Below, piece by piece: positions 1-14,036 of a stretch of DNA of 25,754 nt. Numbering within the stretch: position 1 is the first letter of the stretch; each line of letters starts with the position of its first letter. A program made the position numbers and the translations under genes. This DNA comes from Desulfobulbus sp. Its GTDB lineage: Bacteria > Desulfobacterota > Desulfobulbia > Desulfobulbales > Desulfobulbaceae. Below the pieces are notes generated by a model that worked only from the letters and a program-made list of their open reading frames with translations, was not told the DNA's origin and did no database searches. The stretch lies in the NCBI GenBank assembly GCA_028684915.1, contig JAQUEZ010000051.1:10399-36152 (forward strand). The letters are read 5' to 3'.

Positions 1-525
1 AGAATACGGAACTCGAAAAGGCTAAACTCGCTCAGGCAAAGCTCGCGAATGAACGGCTGGCGGCTATCGACGCCATCTCCAAGGAAAGGGATAATCTCCT
101 CGCACAGAATACGGAACTCGAAAAGGCTAGACTCGCTCAGGCAAAGCTCGCGAATGAACGACTGGCGGCTATCGACGCCATCTCCAAGGAAAGGGATAAT
201 CTCCTCGCACAGAATACAGAGCTCGAAAAGGCAAAACTAGCTCAGGCAAAGCTCGAGAATGAACGACTGGCGGCTATCGACGCCATCTCCAAGGAAAGGG
301 ATAATCTCCTCGCACAGAATACGGAACTCGAAAAAGCTAAACTCGCTCAGGCAAAGCTCGAGAATGAACGACTGGCAGCTTTGGACGCCATCTCCAAGGA
401 AAGGGATAATCTCCGCGGGCAGAATACAGAGCTCGAAAAAGCAAAACTAGCTCAGGCAAAGCTCGAGAATGAACGACTGGCGGCTTTGGACGCCATCTCC
501 AAGGAAAGGGATGCAGCAAAAACTC
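1..525 (+). repeat. Tandem 105-bp in-frame repeat, five units
   Basis: Units begin at 1, 106, 211, 316 and 421, each recognised by AGAATAC, giving an exact 105-bp period that keeps the frame. The last unit diverges near its end. Synonymous variants show sub-structure: units 3 and 5 share ACAGAGCTC and GCAAAACTA, whereas units 1, 2 and 4 have ACGGAACTC with GCT (or its AGA-type variant in unit 2). This pattern suggests duplication of two-unit (210-bp) blocks. The array probably continues upstream of the window. Confidence 0.92.
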
Positions 526-3612: not shown

Positions 3613-4683
3613 ATGAAATGTTTTCTTCACATTGGAACTGAAAAAACAGCTACAACAACCTTGCAAAATTTTTTTGATATAAACAGGAATAGGCTCTTAA
3701 AAAAAGGGTTTATTTATACCAAAGCTGCAGGAAATAGCAATAATCGCCAATTACCTGTTGCAGCTTATGATTTACACAGACGCGATGATTTCACGAAAGG
3801 CATTGGTCTTGATACGGAAGATAAATTAGCATCCTTTCAAAGGAAAACTATAGATAGCCTCACAGAAGAGATTGAGTTAATAAAAAAAGGCAACCCAAAA
3901 ACTACGACAATAATATTTTCATCTGAACATATCCAATCCCGGCTCACTAACATCAAAGAGCTAGAGAGGTTAAAATATATTTTATTAAATTTTGGGATCA
4001 ATGATATTAGCGTTATTGTATATTTACGTCGCCCTGCTGAGATTGCAAATTCATTATACTCGACAGCAATTAAAGCTGGATCATGTGAAGATACTCCTCC
4101 TCTACCAATGAATCCATATTGGAATAATGTATGTAACCATAGACAAACTATAGAAAAATTCGGCTCCATTTTCGGAAAAGCTGCCATAATTCCTCGACTT
4201 TTCGATAAGAACCATTTTGTCAACGGTTCAGTTATAGATGACGTCTTGAATGTGATTGGCATACCAAATGACAATTACGTCATTCCAAATAATGCAAACG
4301 GAAGTCTTTCCCTAACTGGGGTTAACATACTCAGACGTCTTAACAAGACTGTTCCAGTGTGGGTTGGTAACAAGCCTAATCAAGTTAGAGCAAATCTTGT
4401 TTCATACATTCAGAAACATCTATCTGAAAACAAATATATTATGCCAGGTAATTTATACGAAGCATACGATTTAGAATTTCAAAAATCTAACGAATGGGTC
4501 AGGCTACAATACTTTCCAGACAAAAAAGTATTGTTTTCATCAGAAATACCTAAAGAGTCTAACCTGAATATTCCAGATTCAGAACTTGATAGAATAGTAG
4601 ATTTAATTACGAACATATGGATTGATAAGGAAAGAAAGATACTGGACCTAACGAATAAGGCCACGTCAGCAGAATGTGTGTAA
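3613..4683 (+). CDS. Sulfotransferase-family protein, C-terminus formed by inserted repeats
   Basis: 356 residues from the ATG at 3613. In-frame ATGs at 3574 and 3604 also exist, but family members start just before the first strand, as MKCFLHIGTEKT does here. The 5'-phosphosulfate loop is HIGTEKTATTTL (~6-17). The 3'-phosphate motif is VIVYLRRPAEIANSLYS (~134-150), with R139/R140, S147 and S150. IIFSSEH (~100-106) is also typical. Predicted role: PAPS-dependent sulfation of a polysaccharide sugar. The gene is AT-rich. The last codons (from ~4659, residues ATSAECV) lie in the terminal repeat of a ~350-bp element, and the TAA stop belongs to a 156-bp MITE end. The natural C-terminus has therefore been replaced, and activity is uncertain although both cofactor motifs are intact. 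The insertions lie directly downstream. Confidence 0.8.
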   Translation: MKCFLHIGTEKTATTTLQNFFDINRNRLLKKGFIYTKAAGNSNNRQLPVAAYDLHRRDDFTKGIGLDTEDKLASFQRKTIDSLTEEIELIKKGNPKTTTIIFSSEHIQSRLTNIKELERLKYILLNFGINDISVIVYLRRPAEIANSLYSTAIKAGSCEDTPPLPMNPYWNNVCNHRQTIEKFGSIFGKAAIIPRLFDKNHFVNGSVIDDVLNVIGIPNDNYVIPNNANGSLSLTGVNILRRLNKTVPVWVGNKPNQVRANLVSYIQKHLSENKYIMPGNLYEAYDLEFQKSNEWVRLQYFPDKKVLFSSEIPKESNLNIPDSELDRIVDLITNIWIDKERKILDLTNKATSAECV

Positions 4684-4710
4684 CCGATCACGGCGGAACC
4701 CCAAAGGCAC

Positions 4711-5812
4711 GGCGGATTCAACTCTGAAGTGCAACTTTTGTGAGAGGATTTAAGTGGCGAGTTGCGTTAAGATCGAAGCCACTTAAGCGATCAAGTAAAA
4801 GGAGCATTGATGAAGCCCTATAAGCAACTCGCCATTGAGCAACGATACCAGATCTACGGATTGAAACAAGCTGGTTTGGATCAAAGCCAGATCGCCTTCA
4901 ATCTTGGGGTCAACAAATCAACGATTTCACGGGAGTTGAGCCGCAATAGAGGCCAACGCGGCTGGCGTCCGAAACAGGCGCAGGCATTTCGGGACGAACG
5001 CAAACGAAGCTGCCTCAATGGCAAGTGCATCTCTTTGCATGAATGGGCTGAAGTCGAGCGGCTGGTCCGAGCGGACTTCAGTCCGGAACAGGTTGAACAT
5101 CGCCTTGCTTTGGAGGGCGGCTTGCGGATCAGCCACGAAACCGTCTACCGCCATATCTATGCCGACAAGAAAGCCGGCGGCGACCTGCACCAGCATCTAC
5201 GAAGCCAGAAACCCCATCGCAAGCGTTATGCAAGCGGTCAAGAAAGGCGCGGCGTGCTGAAAAACCGTGTCAGCATTGACGAACGTCCTGCAATTGTAGA
5301 GCAAAAAATCCGAGTGGGCGATTGGGAAGGAGATACTGTCATTGGCAAAAATCATAAAGGCGGCTTGGTCACCCTGGCCGACCGGACAACGCGCTATGTT
5401 CTAGCTGGGCATATTCGCAGCAAGCACGCCGATGGAGTGACCGCGGTGACAACGCGTTTGCTGGAGCCCCACAAAGACAGCTGCCACACCATCACCTTCG
5501 ACAACGGCAAAGAATTTGCCGGGCATCAACGCATCGCGGCGGCGCTTCAGGCCTCGATCTATTTTGCCCATCCCTATCACTCATGGGAGCGCGGCCTGAA
5601 CGAGAACAGCAACGGTCTCTTGCGGCAGTATTTCCCCAAACGTATGGACTTGAGCGATATAAGCGAGGAGCAGGTGCAGCGAGCGGTTGATCGACTCAAC
5701 CACCGCCCACGAAAAGTATTGGGATATCGTTCGCCGCATGAGGTGTTTTTCGCGACAAAAGTGAGCTATACTAAGCCACCGCTAGCTGTTGCACTTCAGA
5801 GTTGAATCCGCC
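4711..5812 (+). mobile_element. IS30-family insertion sequence, complete
   Basis: 1102 bp with perfect 25-bp terminal inverted repeats at 4711-4735 and 5788-5812. The outermost bases are GGCGGATTCAACTCTGAAGT. A 3-bp target duplication CAC flanks it (4708-4710 and 5813-5815). Size, repeat length and short duplication all fit the IS30 family. It carries one intact transposase gene whose stop codon lies inside the right repeat. It has inserted into a 156-bp MITE, so it is the youngest layer of the nested set. Confidence 0.95.
4810..5805 (+). CDS. IS30-family transposase
   Basis: 331 residues from the ATG at 4810, preceded by AAAAGGAG at a spacing of ~5 bases. An in-frame TTG at 4807 is less likely. 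The N-terminal helix-turn-helix spans ~LKQAGLDQSQIAFNLGVNKS (18-37) and continues TISREL. The catalytic DDE triad is visible: D175 in GDWEGDTVIGK, D231 in TFDNGKEF, and E265 in RGLNENSNG, with a D-E gap of 33 residues as expected for the family. The C-terminal LNHRPRKVLGYRSPHEVF is also typical. It would bind the 25-bp ends and carry out IS30 transposition. The frame is intact, so it is potentially active and could mobilise related elements elsewhere in the genome. Confidence 0.96.
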   Translation: MKPYKQLAIEQRYQIYGLKQAGLDQSQIAFNLGVNKSTISRELSRNRGQRGWRPKQAQAFRDERKRSCLNGKCISLHEWAEVERLVRADFSPEQVEHRLALEGGLRISHETVYRHIYADKKAGGDLHQHLRSQKPHRKRYASGQERRGVLKNRVSIDERPAIVEQKIRVGDWEGDTVIGKNHKGGLVTLADRTTRYVLAGHIRSKHADGVTAVTTRLLEPHKDSCHTITFDNGKEFAGHQRIAAALQASIYFAHPYHSWERGLNENSNGLLRQYFPKRMDLSDISEEQVQRAVDRLNHRPRKVLGYRSPHEVFFATKVSYTKPPLAVALQS

Positions 5813-6277
5813 CACCGTTTATCAACGGACCTGCAAGCGATTGCAGGGTGCCGGAGGTGCAAGGCATCGGCCTGTGCAGCGTACACCTGTACGTAAACAG
5901 GCCGATAACACCGCAGATTCGGTGCCCCGTGATCGCTTACGAATGTGTGGGTAACTCTTTGAAAATTAGCCCCAGAACCTGAGACCGCCGGAGGTGAGAG
6001 GGGTGGGCACCTGCCGCCCCGTCACCCTTGCCACTTTCAGGATGAGCGTGGAGGCTCGGCTCTGTCAAGGCTGTGCGCACAGCGCACACCCGCAGGGCTT
6101 GGCCTTGAGACGGGGCTCTATGCTACCTCCCGCGCCGTACTAAATAACGGTGCATAGGGTTGAGCCAACGACCGATCCCAATGCACCCGCTCGGATTGGG
6201 CAGCGTAAAACACGCTGAAACAATGCGTTACGGTTCAGAATGTTACCGGTCCACCCACACATTCTGCGGAGGAACCA

Positions 6278-6629
6278 GGCCTCGTCCGCAGAATTCGTGG
6301 GTTGATTCTTGATATTTAGCCCCAGAACCTGAGCCCCGCCGGAGGTGAAGGTGTGGGGCGCCTGCCGCCCCGTCACCCTTGCCACCTTCAGGTGGAGCGT
6401 GGAGGCTCGGCTCTGTCAAGGCTGTGCGCACAGCGCACACCCGCAGGGCTTGGCCTTGATAGAGTCGGGGCTCTATGCTACCGACCGCACCGTACTAAAA
6501 AACGGTGCATAGGGTTGAGCCAACGACCGATCCCAATACATCGGCTCGGATTTGACAGTGAAAAACACACTGGAACAGTACTTTGCGATTCAGAACGTTA
6601 CCGCAACCCACAGATTCTGCGGAAGAGCC
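6278..6629 (+). repeat. ~350-bp repeat element R2
   Basis: R2 is in direct orientation immediately after R1 (1 bp between them). The left end is GGCCTCGTCCGCAGAATTCG at 6278-6297. The right end, read on the - strand from 6629, is GGCTCTTCCGCAGAATCTGT. GG(C)TCTT-type ends resemble ISL3-family terminal repeats, so these could be ISL3-type MITEs; this is inference. The centre holds a 12-bp stem (6411-6422 with 6453-6464, one G-U pair) enclosing the near-palindrome GTGCGCACAGCGCAC. Short ORFs here are not conserved between copies in a protein-like way, and I do not call them genes. No clear target duplication was found. Confidence 0.8.
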
Positions 6630-6684
6630 TCTAAAATTTCTGGTTAGCGGTTAGGGTTACTCGCAGGAAGCATTTTATGGGACA

Positions 6685-6710
6685 AAGAACAATCCAATCG
6701 TTCTTTTTTT
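6685..6710 (+). terminator. Possible rho-independent terminator after R2
   Basis: AAGAAC (6685-6690) and GTTCTT (6700-6705) form a short stem with a 9-base loop, followed directly by a T run to 6710. The stem is AT-rich and weak. It could isolate the downstream glycosyltransferase genes from transcription reading out of the IS/repeat region. Confidence 0.35.
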
Positions 6711-7276
6711 GTAACTGATTACAGGGAGGTAATCCAGGTGATGTCTAGTGCGTGCCCTTGGCAATGCGCGGTCATGGCCTCAACGAGAACCTCGAAGGTT
6801 GGCTTGTTATGCAGGCCGCAGGTTTGTGAGTGTGAGTATCCTCTCCACCCAGCGGCTGCCTGAGCATGTATTTGGAGTGCAGACACAGAAGGCTGGCAAT
6901 CTGCTTGTTCGTACTGTTGGCCTGGCCCGAGCAACGAGATAAATCGGCTTGAGGAATTTGCTGTACAATATGGATCGACTCGGGACATTCTTAACCATTT
7001 AACAGGAGAGTTGAGCTTTCACTCCGGTGAGGCGTAAAAATTCGCACAAGAAATCAAAATTGGCCGCAAAAAAGCGGATAACGACGTTTAGGTCTGTTGG
7101 GTGCGATTGCCAGCCTTGCAGGATGATGCTGGTGTTTATACGCCGTTATGCTACGGCTATCTTAGCCGTCTTACCTTGACCTGAAAATCAAGCAGGATTT
7201 TTTTCTCCTGTTCCAACACTATGATAATACCCAATGTTTCTTAATGTTACACACTAAGAGAGGAGATTTAATTGGC
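6711..7276. other. Gene-poor spacer with a possible decayed coding fragment
   Basis: No convincing intact gene in ~565 bp. On the + strand, a stretch open from 6864 to the TAA at 7038 has no usable start and reads in part NRLEEFAVQYGSTRDILNHL, which looks protein-like; I do not recognise it. Overlapping - strand ORFs of 60-90 codons are present but lack recognisable motifs. Small hairpins occur at ACGGCT...AGCCGT (~7154-7170) and CCGC...GCGG (~7062-7076). The spacer probably contains the promoter for the gene at 7277, but I see no strong -35/-10 pair. Confidence 0.3.
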
Positions 7277-8554
7277 ATGAAGTCGCTCGTATTGACCAGT
7301 GTTAATCCATTCTCCAGACTAGATTACCAGAAGCTTTGCTTTGATGCATGGAATGCAACAGGGTACTCCGTTCGAACTGTAAACTGCGCCGATGAAGCTA
7401 AAAAACTAATTAATGCAGGTTTTAATTCACAAGATATTGACATCATCCCTGACAGCGAAACATCCTTAGGCCTATACGGCAAAGCAATCCCCCGCATTGT
7501 CCCGGTTATAAATCGCGCTAAAGATTACAACTACGACACGACCTTCTTAACCAACTCGGATATTTATCCCATTCACCAACGGCCGCTTTCACGTTTTTTA
7601 TCCAGCATTGGTGACGCCATAGCGCTGACTCGTAACGAGTGTGTTCGGATCGATGATAATCAATTCATCGATTCTTTCCCCTATCGGGGTGGCTTGGATA
7701 TTTTCTTTTTCACCCGTCAAGGAATTGAAGCAACGTATGATCTGCTCAAAACACGCCCAACTGCAGAACGAATGACCTATGGTATTCCCGGATGGGACTT
7801 TTACCTTGGATATCTGCTAATTAGCCAACTTAATGCAAAAATAATAGATGGCGAGGTATTTCTGCATCAGCGGCATAAGACCAGCTACAACCAAATCGAT
7901 GAGTTCTTCGAGCTGTACGCCAAAGAAATGAAAACCACGGGGTTTCTCCATAGCAACGACTCAAATACGCTTGCTGCCGAGTTTGCAGACCTCATCAGCA
8001 GGCACTGCGAAAATAACACCTTCATATCAAAAATCTTAAGAACCGCCTTCTATGTACCACTTCCGACACAGGTATCGCCACAGGCTGAGACGGTTTATGC
8101 CAGGATCAAAGCCGAAATTGCATTGAAAAAAATAGACCTAAGACCAAACCCAAAACGCTTTATCAAGTTTATCGATAGCCAGATTGAGGATTGCAACTGG
8201 TCATCGGTAGAATACTACCAAAAAAGTTATATGAAAATGTATCCGGCAGATACCTTGTACTTGTTGATGCTGGTTACTCAGTTAATGATCAAACAGCAGT
8301 TAGGCTGTTTCCACATTGCAACCAATTACCCGGAAAACAACGCACATGGTCTTGCGCTACGGCAAATCATCAACAACACCCGTGACCATGAAGAAGAGCG
8401 ACTGACGTATATCATTCGGCTATTCAGCTCCGAACTCATAGACTACGGAATTATCAATCCCATTCTATTCAAGTATATCGTCTGGTCTGCCAATAATGAC
8501 TACGTTCTCGGGCTGTGCAATATCGTTTATGAACTTTGCATGAAAGGTATGTAA
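7277..8554 (+). CDS. Putative glycosyltransferase-like protein
   Basis: 425 residues from the ATG at 7277. AGGAG at 7261-7265 lies 11 bases upstream, somewhat far; an ATT at 7271 or the ATG at 7244 are less likely alternatives. The N-terminal half looks like a nucleotide-diphospho-sugar transferase fold: MKSLVLTSVNPFSRLDYQKL at the start, then DTTFLTNSDIYP (~94-105) with a possible metal-binding S-D, and IPGWDFYLGYLLISQ further on. The C-terminal ~170 residues are helical and unrecognised. There is no signal peptide or clear membrane helix. It is the first gene of a tight cluster: its stop is 2 bp before the next start. It probably adds a sugar to the polysaccharide in the cytoplasm, but no specific family or substrate can be named. 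Confidence 0.7.
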   Translation: MKSLVLTSVNPFSRLDYQKLCFDAWNATGYSVRTVNCADEAKKLINAGFNSQDIDIIPDSETSLGLYGKAIPRIVPVINRAKDYNYDTTFLTNSDIYPIHQRPLSRFLSSIGDAIALTRNECVRIDDNQFIDSFPYRGGLDIFFFTRQGIEATYDLLKTRPTAERMTYGIPGWDFYLGYLLISQLNAKIIDGEVFLHQRHKTSYNQIDEFFELYAKEMKTTGFLHSNDSNTLAAEFADLISRHCENNTFISKILRTAFYVPLPTQVSPQAETVYARIKAEIALKKIDLRPNPKRFIKFIDSQIEDCNWSSVEYYQKSYMKMYPADTLYLLMLVTQLMIKQQLGCFHIATNYPENNAHGLALRQIINNTRDHEEERLTYIIRLFSSELIDYGIINPILFKYIVWSANNDYVLGLCNIVYELCMKGM

Positions 8555-8556
8555 CC

Positions 8557-9513
8557 ATGTCAAATCTTCCTATCCCTCGCAGTGAAGCCGCCACCCTACC
8601 TTGGGAACAAGGCCTAACCATCGAAAAAGAAACAAAGCAACTTCCTACGGTTTCTATCGTTATTCCGATATATAATGCTGGTCATTTTCTTGAGAAGACC
8701 CTGCGCAGCCTGTTGTGTAATGACCTAAACGGCGTAGAACTGCTGCTAATGGATGGTGGCAGCACCGACGACACTATGGAAATAGTTGAACACTACAGAA
8801 ACATGTTCACCTTCGTATTCAGCGGCAAAGATGAGGGACAGTCCGATGCCATAAACAATGGCTTCAAGAAAGCCACCGGGAAAATCCTGTACTGGCTGAA
8901 CGGCGATGACATCATTTTGCCCAACACGCTGAATCCGATCCGGCGTTACTTTGGAAAGCATTCTAAGTGTGAGGTTCTGGTCGGCAACGCCTTCATGACC
9001 GAGATAGATTTCACCCCGATCAATCACTTCGTATTCTCAGCGGAAAAACTTACTTTCAAGTATCTGCTTAATTATGCCAAGCACCACCTGATTCAACCTA
9101 GCGTCTTTTTTACCCGCAAGGCATGGGACACCTCTGGGCCATTGGATATTCATGACCATTACGCCATGGATGCCGACCTGTTTATCGGCATGGCTAAAGC
9201 GTTCACACTGAACCATATAGACCTAGACATCGCTTACAGCGTCTACCACGAAGCCTGTAAAACTCGCGGTGCCCGTGCCGAATCGATCACCTCTCTGGCG
9301 CTGGTGCAAGCCAAACACGGGGGGCTGCAAGAATGCAGGGAAACCCTGAATATTCTGGTCTCCCTTTATCGCCAGTTAGAGGAGGAATCGGAAAACGGTT
9401 CACGCAAAAATTCACAAATTAAGGTTTTAGAGGCCAAACTCTCTGCCCTGACAAAACACCAGCAAAAGCAGAAGGATCTGTTGCTGCAAACTGACCTGGA
9501 GATGCACCCATGA
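8557..9513 (+). CDS. Family 2 glycosyltransferase
   Basis: 318 residues from the ATG at 8557 (AAAGG at 8543-8547 upstream; a start at 8536 would overlap the previous gene). The GT-A core is clear: VSIVIPIYNAGHFLEKTLRS (~32-51), the nucleotide-binding MDGGSTDDT (~65-73), GKDEGQSDAINNGFKKATG (~90-108), and the metal-binding NGDD (~115-118). HHLIQPSVFFTRKAW and YAMDADLFIGMA belong to the acceptor half of the domain. The last ~55 residues form a charged coiled coil (LYRQLEEESENG...LEAKLSALTKHQQKQKDLL), which may bind a partner. It uses an unknown nucleotide sugar. The 3' end overlaps the next gene by 4 bp (ATGA), indicating translational coupling. Confidence 0.9.
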   Translation: MSNLPIPRSEAATLPWEQGLTIEKETKQLPTVSIVIPIYNAGHFLEKTLRSLLCNDLNGVELLLMDGGSTDDTMEIVEHYRNMFTFVFSGKDEGQSDAINNGFKKATGKILYWLNGDDIILPNTLNPIRRYFGKHSKCEVLVGNAFMTEIDFTPINHFVFSAEKLTFKYLLNYAKHHLIQPSVFFTRKAWDTSGPLDIHDHYAMDADLFIGMAKAFTLNHIDLDIAYSVYHEACKTRGARAESITSLALVQAKHGGLQECRETLNILVSLYRQLEEESENGSRKNSQIKVLEAKLSALTKHQQKQKDLLLQTDLEMHP

Positions 9514-10967
9514 AAGTAGCCATTTTTTCTAGTGCCTCGGCAGGTGGCGCCGGTATCGCGGCCTATCGCATTTATGAAGCTCTGTCTGAAGCTTCCGAAT
9601 TAGAGGTGGATTTCCTTGATATCGCCACTTTGGGACAGTTATCCCAGACCGTGTCACCCAATTACAGTGCCAGTAACGGTCGTATTACCAATACCCACTT
9701 TACCGTGGACTATGCGACCGAACCTCGCCGCTGGTTGGTCGACTTTTTAGCGGGCTACGATGTGCTGAATGTTCAATGGGCCAGTTACCTGATGTCACTC
9801 AGCGAAATTCTCGAACTGGCCAAGCGCGGCAAACAGATTCTCTTTACACTGCACGATTTCTATTATATTACCGGCGGCTGCCACTACCCAGCTGGGTGCC
9901 TGGGCTTTCTCGACAATTGTGTTGGCTGCCCGCAGGTGGATGAACGCAAATGCGATCAACATACAGTAATAAACACCCTCAAGCTGAAACGGAAAATCTT
10001 CTCCTACGATAATGTTCATCTGGCCGCCCCCAGTGCCTTTATTGTGAATTCGGCAATTCGCTCCGACATTATTCCAAAACATCGAGGGCATGTACTGCGC
10101 AACGCCTATCGACCGATCGAAAAATTTCAACCAATTGAATGGGGTAATAAGCGCAGCATTCTGTTGATTGCCGATTCTTTTGACGAGCGGCGCAAGGGCC
10201 TGCAACTTGCGGTCGATTCGCTCAAGTTAGTATTGGCCGATGAAGGGGTAAAGCCTTATAAAGTAGAACTACACTTGGTCGGCGGCATGGACAAAGAGGT
10301 TATCAGTCAACTCAATTCTTCACAGGTGCATATTGTTACGCATGGGCATATCAAGCAACATAAAAATTTGGTAGAAATTTTCAAAAAGTGCCAGTTTATT
10401 TTGACTTGTTCGTATGAAGATAACTGGCCTAATATTTTAGTCGAAGCGGGGTCTTATGGCTGTATCCCTATAGTCGGACGTTGGCACGGGAATGAGGAAT
10501 TTGTACGCACCCTTGATTTCGGAATTATTTCTGAAAATTACACAGCTCATAAATTTCACATCGCCATAAGGTCTGCTATAGACAACTTCAGCACAACAAA
10601 AAAAGATTTACCCAAAAAAGTAAAAAAAATTAGAGAAATGCATTCGTACAAAACAGCACGAACACAATACATCAACAATATAAAAAATACAGAAATCAAA
10701 GAAAATTTTATTAAAAACAATAAAGACGAGAACATTTTATCATCTAACTATTTAATAACAAAACTAAATAAAAAACACAAATATGAAATAGAGATAATAG
10801 ATACACCCTTTGGGATCCAAGGTGATAAGAAATCAATCGACTTTGATTCAAGCGATTTATCGAAAAATTTACCCCACGTATGGGGGAAAAATACATACGG
10901 AATAACTTGTTTTAGAATAAAAAACGTATCTTTGAAGAGGCTAAAATACAATGAAAAAATCAAATAA
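9510..10967 (+). CDS. Family 4 glycosyltransferase with atypical C-terminal tail
   Basis: 485 residues. The start overlaps the previous stop (ATGA). A GT-B, GT4-like enzyme: MKVAIFSSASAGGAGIAAYR at the start, LHDFYYITGGCHYPAGC with further cysteines in NCVGCPQVDERKC (~111-150, a cysteine-rich segment known in this group and possibly metal-binding), and the C-terminal donor-site region CSYEDNWPNILVEAGSYGCI (~308-327). After ~residue 380 composition changes sharply: the final ~100 residues are Lys/Asn/Ile-rich and the DNA is very AT-rich. This is not normal for the family and suggests an appended or replaced 3' end. The stop overlaps the start of the next, truncated, sulfotransferase by 17 bp. 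Donor and acceptor sugars are unknown. Confidence 0.88.
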   Translation: MKVAIFSSASAGGAGIAAYRIYEALSEASELEVDFLDIATLGQLSQTVSPNYSASNGRITNTHFTVDYATEPRRWLVDFLAGYDVLNVQWASYLMSLSEILELAKRGKQILFTLHDFYYITGGCHYPAGCLGFLDNCVGCPQVDERKCDQHTVINTLKLKRKIFSYDNVHLAAPSAFIVNSAIRSDIIPKHRGHVLRNAYRPIEKFQPIEWGNKRSILLIADSFDERRKGLQLAVDSLKLVLADEGVKPYKVELHLVGGMDKEVISQLNSSQVHIVTHGHIKQHKNLVEIFKKCQFILTCSYEDNWPNILVEAGSYGCIPIVGRWHGNEEFVRTLDFGIISENYTAHKFHIAIRSAIDNFSTTKKDLPKKVKKIREMHSYKTARTQYINNIKNTEIKENFIKNNKDENILSSNYLITKLNKKHKYEIEIIDTPFGIQGDKKSIDFDSSDLSKNLPHVWGKNTYGITCFRIKNVSLKRLKYNEKIK

Positions 10968-11133
10968 AGTTTACCTTTATATAGGAATTCACAAAACTGG
11001 TTCCAGCAGCATTCAAGAAACTTTATACTATCTGCCGAATAGAGATATTTTTTCATCACAAAATATCCATATAATCAACGCTCTCACTGTCAATCATTCT
11101 GAATTTTTCCAGGGTGCTTTCTCGAAAGGGTAA
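10951..11133 (+). pseudogene. Sulfotransferase 5' fragment, truncated by a MITE
   Basis: Only 60 residues remain. VYLYIGIHKTGSSSIQETLY (~8-27) is a clear 5'-phosphosulfate-binding loop of the sulfotransferase family, at the position expected for a gene start. The frame runs into the end of the 156-bp element at 11130, whose GTAAGCG supplies the TAA stop (11131-11133). The 3'-phosphate-binding motif and the rest of the enzyme are missing, and no continuation is seen after the repeats end at 11660. The fragment cannot be an active transferase. It overlaps the preceding glycosyltransferase by 17 bp, so it was once the fourth gene of that cluster. Confidence 0.85.
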
Positions 11134-11285
11134 GCGATCACGGGGCACCGAATCTACGGTGTTATTGACCTGTTTACGTACAGGTGTACGCTGAACAGGC
11201 CGAGCCCTTGCACCTCCGGCACCCTGCAATCGCTTACAAGTCCCTTGATAAACGATGCTTTTTTGAGCTCCCCCTGATCGGTTAC
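11130..11285 (-). mobile_element. 156-bp GTAA-ended MITE (copy B)
   Basis: Ends are GTAAGCGATCACGG at 11130-11143 and, on the - strand from 11285, GTAACCGATCAGGG. Length is exactly 156 bp. Its first 125 bp (11130-11254) match copy A (5816-5940) in inverted orientation with few differences. The internal CCTGTTTACGTACAGG region is a near-palindrome. Unlike copy A, the flanking 8 bases (TCGAAAGG and CTTCTGAT) do not match, so one flank was probably lost by deletion or rearrangement, along with the rest of the sulfotransferase gene it cut. Confidence 0.85.
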
Positions 11286-11307
11286 CTTCTGATCAATATT
11301 AAAAAGG

Positions 11308-11660
11308 GGTTCCTCCGCAGAATTTGTGGGTGGGCAGATGATCGCCCTGACGACAACACACTGATATATGACTATTTCAGCCGCTCTATCCGAGGGGAGG
11401 CGCTGGGATCGGTCATCAGTTCGTCTTTCGAACGTGTTTTAAAGAACAGCACAGCTTGTAGCATGGAGCCCCGGCTCTATCAAGGCCGAGCCCTGCGGGT
11501 GTGCGCTGTGCGCACAGCCTTGACAGAGCTGAGCCTCCACGCTCATCCTGAAAGTGGCAAGGGGACGGGGCGGCAGGCACCCCACACCATCACCTCCGGC
11601 GGGGCTCAGGTTCTGGGGCTAAATACCAAAGATCTACCCACAGATTCTGCGGACGAGGCG
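11308..11660 (-). repeat. ~350-bp repeat element R3, inverted copy
   Basis: 353 bp, opposite orientation to R1 and R2. Ends are GGTTCCTCCGCAGAATTTGT at 11308 and, on the - strand from 11660, CGCCTCGTCCGCAGAATCTG. The outer third containing CCCCAGAACCTGAG and the central hairpin region are closely shared with R1/R2. The part near 11340-11460 is clearly more divergent. The 12-bp stem (11475-11486 with 11517-11528) is kept, with a G-U pair when read on the - strand. A long ORF across copy B and R3 (11184-11729) is made of repeat sequence and is not called. Confidence 0.8.
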
Positions 11661-11948: not shown

Positions 11949-13064
11949 ATGACAAAAGCAATCATCACCGGTATAACCGGCCAAGACGGATCCTATCTCG
12001 CTGAATTTCTTCTTAACAAAGGTTACGAGGTGCATGGCATAAAACGTCGCGCCTCCTCGTTCAACACTCAACGGATTGATCACCTCTATCAGGATCCTCA
12101 CGTTGATAATCAACGCTTTGTCCTTCACTATGGCGACCTGTCTGACGCCACCAACCTAATTCGTATTCTGCGAGAGGTGCAACCCGAGGAAGTCTACAAC
12201 CTCGGTGCACAGAGTCATGTGGCGGTTTCGTTTGATTCACCGGAGTACACCGCAGACGTGGTTGGACTGGGGACCCTGCGCCTGTTGGAGGCTATCCGCT
12301 TGCTGGGTTTGGAGAAGAAAACCCGATTTTACCAGGCATCAACCTCAGAACTGTACGGCCTTGTTCAGGAAATTCCTCAGACGGAAACCACTCCCTTTTA
12401 TCCCCGTTCGCCCTATGCTGCGGCCAAACTGTATTCCTACTGGATTACGGTCAACTATCGGGAGGCATACGGCATGTACGCCTGCAACGGCATCCTGTTT
12501 AACCACGAGAGTCCACGACGGGGGGAAACCTTTGTTACCCGAAAGATTACCCGCGGACTGTGCAACATTTCCCAAGGACTGGAAAAATGCCTCTATATGG
12601 GGAACCTCAACTCGTTGCGCGATTGGGGCCATGCCAAAGACTATGTCCGTATGCAGTGGATGATGCTCCAGCAGGAGCATCCGGAAGATTTTGTCATAGC
12701 CACCGGTGTGCAGCATTCGGTCCGACAGTTCATCCAGTGGACTGCCGAGGAGTTGGGGTTGGTGCTTCGTTTTGATGGAGAAGGTGTAAAGGAAACCGGC
12801 ACTGTGGTGGCCGTGCAGGGCGACAAGGCTCACGGTGTCAAGGTTGGGGATGTGATCGTGCGCATTGATCCCAGGTATTTCCGACCATCTGAGGTAGAAA
12901 CCTTGCTCGGTGACCCGTCTAAGGCCAAGAAAAAACTGGGTTGGGTGCCGGAAATCACGGTCCAAGAGATGTGTGCCGAGATGGTGGTCGAAGACCTAAA
13001 GATTGCCAAACGCAATGCCTTTCTGTTGGCAAATGGCCATGATATCTGCCTGTCCGTGGAGTGA
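11949..13064 (+). CDS. gmd: GDP-mannose 4,6-dehydratase
   Basis: 371 residues, full length for the family. It converts GDP-D-mannose to GDP-4-keto-6-deoxy-D-mannose in the cytoplasm, the first step to GDP-L-fucose and related deoxysugars. The NADP-binding loop is [14 protein letters not shown] (~8-21), and [15 protein letters not shown] follows as in known Gmd. Catalytic residues are visible at the classic positions: T132 and E134 in [10 protein letters not shown]156 and K160 in [29 protein letters not shown] and [10 protein letters not shown] are family signatures, and [20 protein letters not shown] is the C-terminal substrate region. It is followed after 3 bp by fcl, the next enzyme of the pathway. 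Confidence 0.98.
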
Positions 13065-13067
13065 GCC

Positions 13068-14036
13068 ATGAGCAATCAACCCCGCATCTTCGTTGCCGGC
13101 CACCGAGGCATGGTTGGCTCTGCTATTGTTCGCTGCCTCCAGCGTCGAGGTTGCACATCCATTCTCACTGCCACAAGAAACGAGGTGGATCTGACCAATC
13201 AGGCGATGGTCCAACAATTTTTTGGCGATCATGCCATTGATCAGGTCTACCTGGCTGCCGCCAAAGTTGGGGGTATCCATGCCAACAACACCTATCCGGC
13301 CCAGTTTATTTACGAAAACCTAATCATCGAGGCCAACATCATTCATGCGGCCCACTTGACCGGGGTAAAGAAGCTCCTTTTTCTCGGTTCCTCTTGTATC
13401 TACCCCAAACTGGCGCCTCAACCTATGCGCGAAGAATCCCTGCTGACAGGTGTTCTTGAGGATACCAATGAGCCCTATGCCGTGGCCAAGATCGCTGGCA
13501 TCAAATTGTGTGAAAGTTACAACCGCCAGTATGACCGCGATTATCGGTCGGTCATGCCCACCAATCTCTATGGTCCTGGCGATAATTTCCATCCGGAAAA
13601 CAGCCATGTAATTCCGGCCTTGATGCGACGCTTCCACGAAGCGGTGCAGCGAGGCGACACGGAGGTGGTGATTTGGGGCACAGGTAAGCCTATGCGTGAG
13701 TTTCTCCATGTGGATGATATGGCCGATGCCTCAGTTCATGTCATGAATCTTGATGTGGCCACGTATCAGCAGTTCACCCAACCAATGCTCTCGCACATCA
13801 ATGTAGGCACCGGCCAGGATTGCACCATTCACGAACTCGCCGAAGCCATGGCACGGGTGACAGGCTTTACCGGGAAGCTGTTTTTTGATTCCAACAAACC
13901 CGATGGCACCCCGCGCAAGCTACTTGATGTGAGCCGATTACACTCCTTGGGTTGGCAGGCTTCCATCGGTCTGGAAGAAGGTTTGCGCAACGCCTATACT
14001 TGGTTTGTCGAGCACCAGGGGGTCTTCCGGGGTTGA
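13068..14036 (+). CDS. fcl: GDP-L-fucose synthase
   Basis: 322 residues. A bifunctional epimerase/reductase of the SDR superfamily that converts GDP-4-keto-6-deoxymannose to GDP-L-fucose with NADPH. The N-terminal loop is [14 protein letters not shown] (~9-22). [20 protein letters not shown] is a family signature. Catalytic residues are S108 and C110 (GSSCIYPK), Y137 and K141 (PYAVAKIAG) and H180 (ENSHVIPAL), each one residue beyond the E. coli numbering. YGPGDNF and [16 protein letters not shown] complete the match. The start lies 3 bp after the gmd stop, so the two are co-translated. Together they supply fucose for the polysaccharide. Confidence 0.98.

Follow-up and report, generated by a model that had tools for sequence, protein, structure and literature searches.

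Nested mobile elements at the 3' end of a Desulfobulbus gene and a structured module probably spread by transposons

The insertion sequence (IS) families IS30, IS66 and ISL3 are the closest described systems for a nest of mobile elements in a 25,754-nucleotide stretch of DNA from Desulfobulbus sp. (contig JAQUEZ010000051.1, positions 10,399 to 36,152; hereafter the window). In this nest, an IS30 element lies in a miniature inverted-repeat transposable element (MITE), M1, and M1 lies in a second MITE, R1, at the end of a gene referred to as the upstream gene. The other copies in the window are M2, R2 and R3 (Table 1). Target duplications of the IS30 family are short, 2–3 bp. The element in the window, with its IS30 transposase, perfect inverted ends and 3-bp duplication, has nothing unusual. 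For IS66, PMC11946415 describes ends of GTAAGCG with 8-bp duplications. M likewise has ends starting with GTAA, an 8-bp duplication (at M1) and the end sequence of full IS66 elements in a related genome, G146. It differs in having no transposase, and its 156 bp include a 108-bp near-palindrome at one side. R shares with the ISL3 family the end sequence and the first ~200 bp, and several copies have 8-bp duplications. Unlike ISL3 elements, R contains no transposase, and about half of it is a structured module.

The module resembles another described class. PMC11109978 counts 250 mobile/repeat sequence candidates (MRSC), which are multicopy covarying motifs, often near transposases and inconsistent in orientation. 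The module shows the same four features. At the level of single motifs the comparison concerns MRSC-65-2, which forms one long stem containing UYCCGG repeats, whereas the module consists of a 5' hairpin and a long stem that branches at its tip. No description of the module was found in a literature search and Rfam, which does not prove it unpublished. The genus Desulfotalea belongs to the order of the module carriers. A Desulfotalea-1 motif appears in a table of PMC2864571 with no Rfam number and is thus invisible to Rfam scans; the module could be related to it.

As an event the nest is of an ordinary kind; the interest lies in the shared module. We regard it as very probable that successive transposition affected the 3' end of a single gene and that the inside of R is an add-on structured module spread by transposons. 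In the nest, the succession of transpositions can be read cleanly, and it supplies end-defined, partner-matched MITE families for a group of environmental bacteria. A structured element with covariation as strong as that of the module, if it recurs across several IS families that are unrelated, would represent either a common transposon control device or a parasite of transposons.

Successive insertions at the end of the upstream gene

A sequence-only reading of the window had proposed an IS30 element with 25-bp perfect ends and a CAC duplication inside a 156-bp MITE, and our recomputation confirmed both the element and the lengths. The transposase scores 300.9 bits against the NCBIfam model transpos_IS30 (NF033563, cut-off 80) and matches Pfam rve and HTH_38, and both marks of the family, transposase type and inverted ends with a short duplication, were found. 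Removing the element together with one CAC leaves exactly the length of the uninterrupted M2. The restored M1 aligns with M2 at 140 identical columns out of 157, with no gaps at the ends. Relatives of the transposase occur in 47 of 193 genomes of the order of L001, a Desulfobulbus locus described below; the closest have ~50% identity over most of the protein, and 61% for one part.

M1 interrupts the left end of R1, flanked by the perfect 8-bp duplication GAATGTGT (8/8, chance ~1.5e-5 at fixed boundaries), as had also been proposed. When M1 with its IS30 element and one GAATGTGT is discounted, R1 is restored to 348 bp, not the 349 bp given earlier, which is close to the 351 bp of R2 without being equal. 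The restored R1 aligns end to end with R2, with identity at 304 of 354 columns and gaps at neither end, and at 273 of 357 columns with R3, the R3 stretch compared being 4 bp short at one end. As a control, the join was shifted by 4 or 8 bp, which kept 301–306 identical columns with R2 and raised the gap columns from 9 to 13–17. Because the shifted joins keep the identity and add only 4–8 gap columns, the length of R1 is moderate evidence, and the strong evidence for M1 in R1 is the 8-bp duplication. Further support for the join comes from the 15 bases GCAGAATGTGTGGGT, which R1 has at its right end and, once restored, at its left end too; R2 and R3 differ in these letters. A failure of the restored repeats to align end to end had been named as what would refute the reconstruction, and both M1 and R1 aligned.

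The boundaries of R were fixed with a copy in genome G153 (L020), which is flanked by a perfect 8-bp repeat, GATTTTAT, with the R ends GCCTCGTCC... and ...GGAAGAGCC. These ends place the starts of R1 and R2 at 4660 and 6279, rather than ~4659 and 6278 as first read; R1 does begin in the last codons of the upstream frame.

Because of the duplications and the end-to-end alignments of both restored repeats, we order the insertions as R1, M1 and IS30. The entry of M1 into R1 and of IS30 into M1 is demonstrated at the sequence level. R1, a non-autonomous element, would have been moved by an ISL3 transposase supplied elsewhere and reached the end of the upstream gene in a polysaccharide locus. R2 would be a second copy, head to tail behind R1; which of the two came earlier is not shown. 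M1, a non-autonomous IS66-type element, would then have entered the left end of R1 and duplicated 8 bp, and the IS30 element would have entered M1 and duplicated 3 bp.

The arrival of R1 in the gene is a step that we infer from its ends and from the points at which relatives of the upstream protein stop. Native codons of the upstream open reading frame (ORF) run to 4659 (349 aa), and its stop codon TAA at 4681–4683 is supplied by the GTAA end of M1. Relatives have 59–75% identity; the best of them (75%) is 351 aa long, the seven fetched span 351–368 aa, and Leu346 is the last column conserved in all eight aligned proteins. The upstream protein should thus be intact and essentially whole despite its R1/M1 tail. 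The ORF matched no Pfam family at E ≤ 0.001, so the name "sulfotransferase" given to it earlier is a likeness; the neighbour at 2088–3476 matches Pfam Sulfotransfer_3.

The families of M and R are named after full-size partners. A search of genome contigs with the R pattern gave two matches, one of them the Desulfobulbus metagenome-assembled genome of L001. In the order of L001, R was matched in 25 and M in 40 of the 193 genomes. The first ~200 bp of R are the start of full elements with an ISL3 transposase (PF01610, 4e-62 at L010; NF033550) in genomes G146 and G113, and R-like ends occur in L164–L166. The G146 copies, 1561 bp long, have 8/8 duplications in all three cases, as does the G113 copy measured (1557 bp, transposase frame broken). 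In G146, the loci with IS66 (PF03050) have GTAACCGATCAGGGG at their bounds; these 15 bases also open the left end of M2, and the ends of M1, GTAACCGATCA / GATCGCTTAC, resemble those of these elements. Because full-size partners in related genomes have their end sequences, M is classed as an IS66-type MITE and R as an ISL3-type MITE. Mobilisation of M by IS66 transposase and of R by ISL3 transposase is predicted, and the transposases would come from full elements elsewhere in the genome.

Nesting was observed in the partners as well. A 134-bp MITE with the same ends and an 8/8 repeat, AGCGCATG, lies inside a G146 IS66 element (L133, 3787–3920), and a G113 ISL3 element is inserted, with the 8/8 repeat AAAAACTC, into the leader of another copy of itself (L035, 1502–3058). 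In the ISL3 leaders (L164, L136–L141), we notice by eye in the alignment an inverted pair GCATCC...GGATGC that is kept with compensating changes, its second arm holding the start codon of the transposase. This pair could hide the transposase start in read-through transcripts.

In M2, the 108-bp near-palindrome spans positions 49–156 (window 11130–11237, reverse strand; fold −55.5 kcal/mol). By itself it is common to many genomes, with as many as 181 first-look candidates in one 2.2-Mb genome and at most four scored per genome in most. The adjoining stretch 10952–11129 looks by eye like the start of a second sulfotransferase-like ORF, truncated by M2, with R3 another 22 bp on.

Table 1. Features of the window, and settings of module copies at other loci
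Feature	Coordinates	Strand	Remarks
Upstream gene	3613-4683	+	356 aa; last 7 codons and stop within R1/M1
R1, ISL3-type MITE	4660-6276	+	348 bp restored (4660-4679 and 5949-6276)
GAATGTGT, left copy of M1 duplication	4672-4679
M1, IS66-type MITE split by IS30	4680-5940	+	4680-4710 and 5816-5940, 156 bp
CAC, left copy of IS30 duplication	4708-4710
IS30 family insertion sequence	4711-5812	+	1102 bp; 25/25 perfect inverted ends
IS30 transposase	4810-5805	+	331 aa; uninterrupted frame
CAC, right copy of IS30 duplication	5813-5815
GAATGTGT, right copy of M1 duplication	5941-5948		8/8 identical to left copy
Structured module in R1	5980-6126	+	118.7 bits with model R2; 4-nt deletion in long stem relative to R2 and R3
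R2, ISL3-type MITE	6279-6629	+	351 bp; same orientation as R1, 2 bp behind it
Structured module in R2	6330-6481	+	146.6 bits
M2, uninterrupted IS66-type MITE	11130-11285	-	156 bp; no 8-bp repeat (0/8)
R3, ISL3-type MITE	11308-11659	-	352 bp; flanks TAAAAAGG / GAAAACGG (6/8, decayed duplication)
Structured module in R3	11458-11608	-	138.9 bits
Module at L182		same as transposase	IS256 transposase ends 14 nt before module
Module at L178			another IS256 transposase, 187 nt away
Module at L213			in the istA-istB gap of an IS21 element; in the same genome, L224 has ORFs of equal lengths
Module at L184, L199		opposite to transposase	adjoins 3' end of IS110 transposases
Module at L202		same as transposase	87 nt upstream of ISL3 transposase
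Module at L203		opposite to transposase	upstream of ISL3 transposase; L217 has an ORF of equal length
Module at L175		opposite to transposase	DDE_Tnp_1 transposase nearby
Module at L185			next to lipid A acyltransferase gene
Module at L188			next to folE2

The structured module inside R

The inside of R is a conserved structured module of ~150 nt, probably of RNA rather than folded DNA. The fold of the stretch 6318–6495 in R2 has a z of −4.7. An earlier MAFFT alignment of 16 sequences already contained double changes at 14 of 41 pairs. The larger covariation set holds 36 copies at E ≤ 1e-12 from 34 chosen sources, in an alignment fitted to the model, which favours the figures that follow. In this set, 95.1% of cells pair, against 77.2% after shuffling, and 28 of 39 pairs show double (compensatory) changes, against a shuffled mean of 18.7 and 13–20 for slid versions. 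The covariation score is 0.532, compared with 0.189 shuffled and 0.08–0.14 slid. The long stem changes its sequence while keeping its pairing, and the branched tip is conserved; genomes G362 and G295 retain the long hairpin and have a different 5' half. On the given strand the alignment folds at −51.3 kcal/mol against −23.1 on the other (15 rows), and the given strand folds better singly in 14 of 16 sequences. G-U cells number 144 and A-C cells 14, counted on the strand on which the structure had been chosen. With Rfam 15, no family exceeded its gathering threshold in the window, and relaxed limits, applied to part of the window and eight loci, gave sub-threshold hits only.

Matches to the inner ~150 bp of R extended to places that lack its end sequence. 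With a first model (15 sequences, E ≤ 0.01, at most 12 candidates scored per genome), 60 of the order's 257 genomes gave hits, many full length and up to 12 per genome, some weak hits being the reverse strand of strong ones. A second model at E ≤ 0.001, applied to the phylum, found the module in 21 of 395 genomes; 17 of these are absent from the genome set of the order, and we took them as outside it. In the phylum of G002 (L002, Bacteroidia) the second model found it in none of 198 genomes; G002 itself was negative, with an R fragment only.

The settings of these copies vary. ORFs were listed near 52 copies and 30 neighbouring ORFs were checked by Pfam, so that the settings in Table 1 are examples and no census. 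In genome G212, eight copies read by eye (L267–L274) lie in another MITE type with ISL3-like ends, with both ends present in six and one end in two. Around 30 module copies, terminal repeats were detected at five (L181, L183, L186, L195 and R2) and at none of the other 25, which include R3 and two known R copies, L040 and L041; the test therefore misses diverged ends. Related ISL3 elements lacked the module at nine of nine loci in six genomes. An ISL3-wide role for the module, which we had considered, is unsupported by these loci. Some ISL3 elements thus have the module in their leader and related ones lack it, and copies are also present within or next to members of other IS families; we therefore take it for an add-on.

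Weighing the readings of the module and of the nest

Our findings on position and strand, which vary between IS families, lead us to favour a structured hitchhiker over a dedicated regulator. Most likely, the module is a hitchhiker that lodges repeatedly in the non-coding gaps of transposons, which would then spread it. We infer this mechanism from the settings of the copies, and any function is putative. On the other hand, the module may be a control device of transposons, a leader or tail that blocks read-through, ends transcription or protects the transposase mRNA and is kept by selection in each IS family. The strong fold agrees with such a role, and so do the same-strand copies upstream of ISL3 transposases (L164 in G146; L202), after the IS256 transposase of L182 and between istA and istB in L213; for these leader and gap cases we keep a control role in consideration. 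However, the module takes the opposite strand at the IS110 transposases and at the ISL3 transposase of L203, copies stand beside ordinary genes (L185, L188), and the related ISL3 loci do without it, and we consider a control device unlikely, though the foremost of the alternatives.

A little less probable still is a role of the module as folded single-stranded DNA, with a hairpin that is recognised or targeted as in REP or attC sites. It is multicopy and near transposases, its long stem is free to vary in sequence, and PMC11109978 voices this doubt about a similar motif. The strand bias of the fold and the excess of G-U over A-C cells argue against this, with the reservation on strand choice given above, and no module was found nearby in 30 loci with REP-type transposases (PF01797) from 18 carrier genomes. 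An origin of the module from REP/RAYT is unsupported by these loci; an ORF near the copy at L191 resembles a REP-type transposase by eye only. Beyond the hitchhiker reading itself, the module may be a phylum-wide structured RNA family that independently entered the non-coding gaps of at least three unrelated families (ISL3, IS256, IS21) and stands at the 3' end of IS110 transposases, either as a shared module or as an RNA-sized parasite of insertion sequences. This broader proposal is tentative, and we give it slightly less than an even chance.

As for the nest, R1, R2 and R3 could be remains of one larger mobile unit, with R2 and R3 bracketing 7244–10967 in the manner of a composite transposon, and the upstream gene would then be no fresh target. 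R2 and R3 are oppositely oriented around three ORFs (the whole spanning 6279–11659), and R1 and R2 have no duplications; R3, however, has a decayed duplication of its own, and we hold a larger unit to be improbable. An assembly artefact, in which repeats from different places were joined into a false nest, appears very improbable. Repeats do disrupt assemblies, and neither reads nor another genome containing this locus are at hand to compare, but misjoins would not be expected to yield two distinct target duplications placed exactly at the ends of elements, or restored lengths that fit end to end.

Several results weigh against successive transposition and a hitchhiking module. Target duplications are missing at R1 (2/8), at R2 (2/8), at R1 and R2 taken as a pair (3/8) and at M2 (0/8); for M2, this makes a deletion beside it possible. 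R copies elsewhere match at 8/8 (L020), 7/8 (L041), 4/8 (L001) and 3/8 (L040) of their flanks. Among 29 distinct M copies, only five reach 7/8 or 8/8 at a fixed offset (L051, L053, L054, L082, L084). The full-size elements are also mixed: the four G146 IS66 elements examined have the duplication at 8/8 in two, 4/8 in the third and no match by eye in the fourth (L133), and four copies of a related 1422-bp ISL3 element in G013 score 8, 7, 8 and 1 of 8, so that one of them has none. The search for empty sites suggested by the sequence-only reading found none in 249 genomes of the order, of which 11 matched the upstream protein, the best at 27% identity. Together with the missing duplication and the barely touched gene, this makes the outermost step, R1 into the gene, weaker than the steps inside it, and the earlier order of insertions is accepted with that difference. 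The strand of the module could have been misjudged, structure and wobble counts having been made on one strand. Hitchhiking rests on examples, and the base-by-base comparison with module-free copies of the same IS covered ISL3.

Neighbouring sequence and other searches

In viral contigs, the R pattern had no match, and five relatives of the IS30 transposase were found at 33–48% identity. In plasmids, 216 records matched, without any that reached 80% coverage of the query; among the 20 listed, matches to the IS30 part reach 68–70% identity over 13–14% of the query, and 18 others have 80–90% over pieces.

One G146 locus encodes a GDP-mannose dehydratase with 89% identity; of 18 window ORFs compared, only gmd and its neighbour are shared with this locus. 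In the window these two genes occupy 11949–14036, with 88% and 76% protein identity to the G146 neighbours, and the 16 other ORFs are absent there. Two of the three ORFs between R2 and R3 are glycosyltransferase-like by eye or Pfam (9510–10967 by Pfam). Named relatives of the phosphomannomutase are few and come mainly from beta- and gammaproteobacteria, while R, M and gmd point to the order of L001. At the contig edge, window positions 1–512 consist of 4.9 tandem copies of a 105-bp unit with 94% matches.

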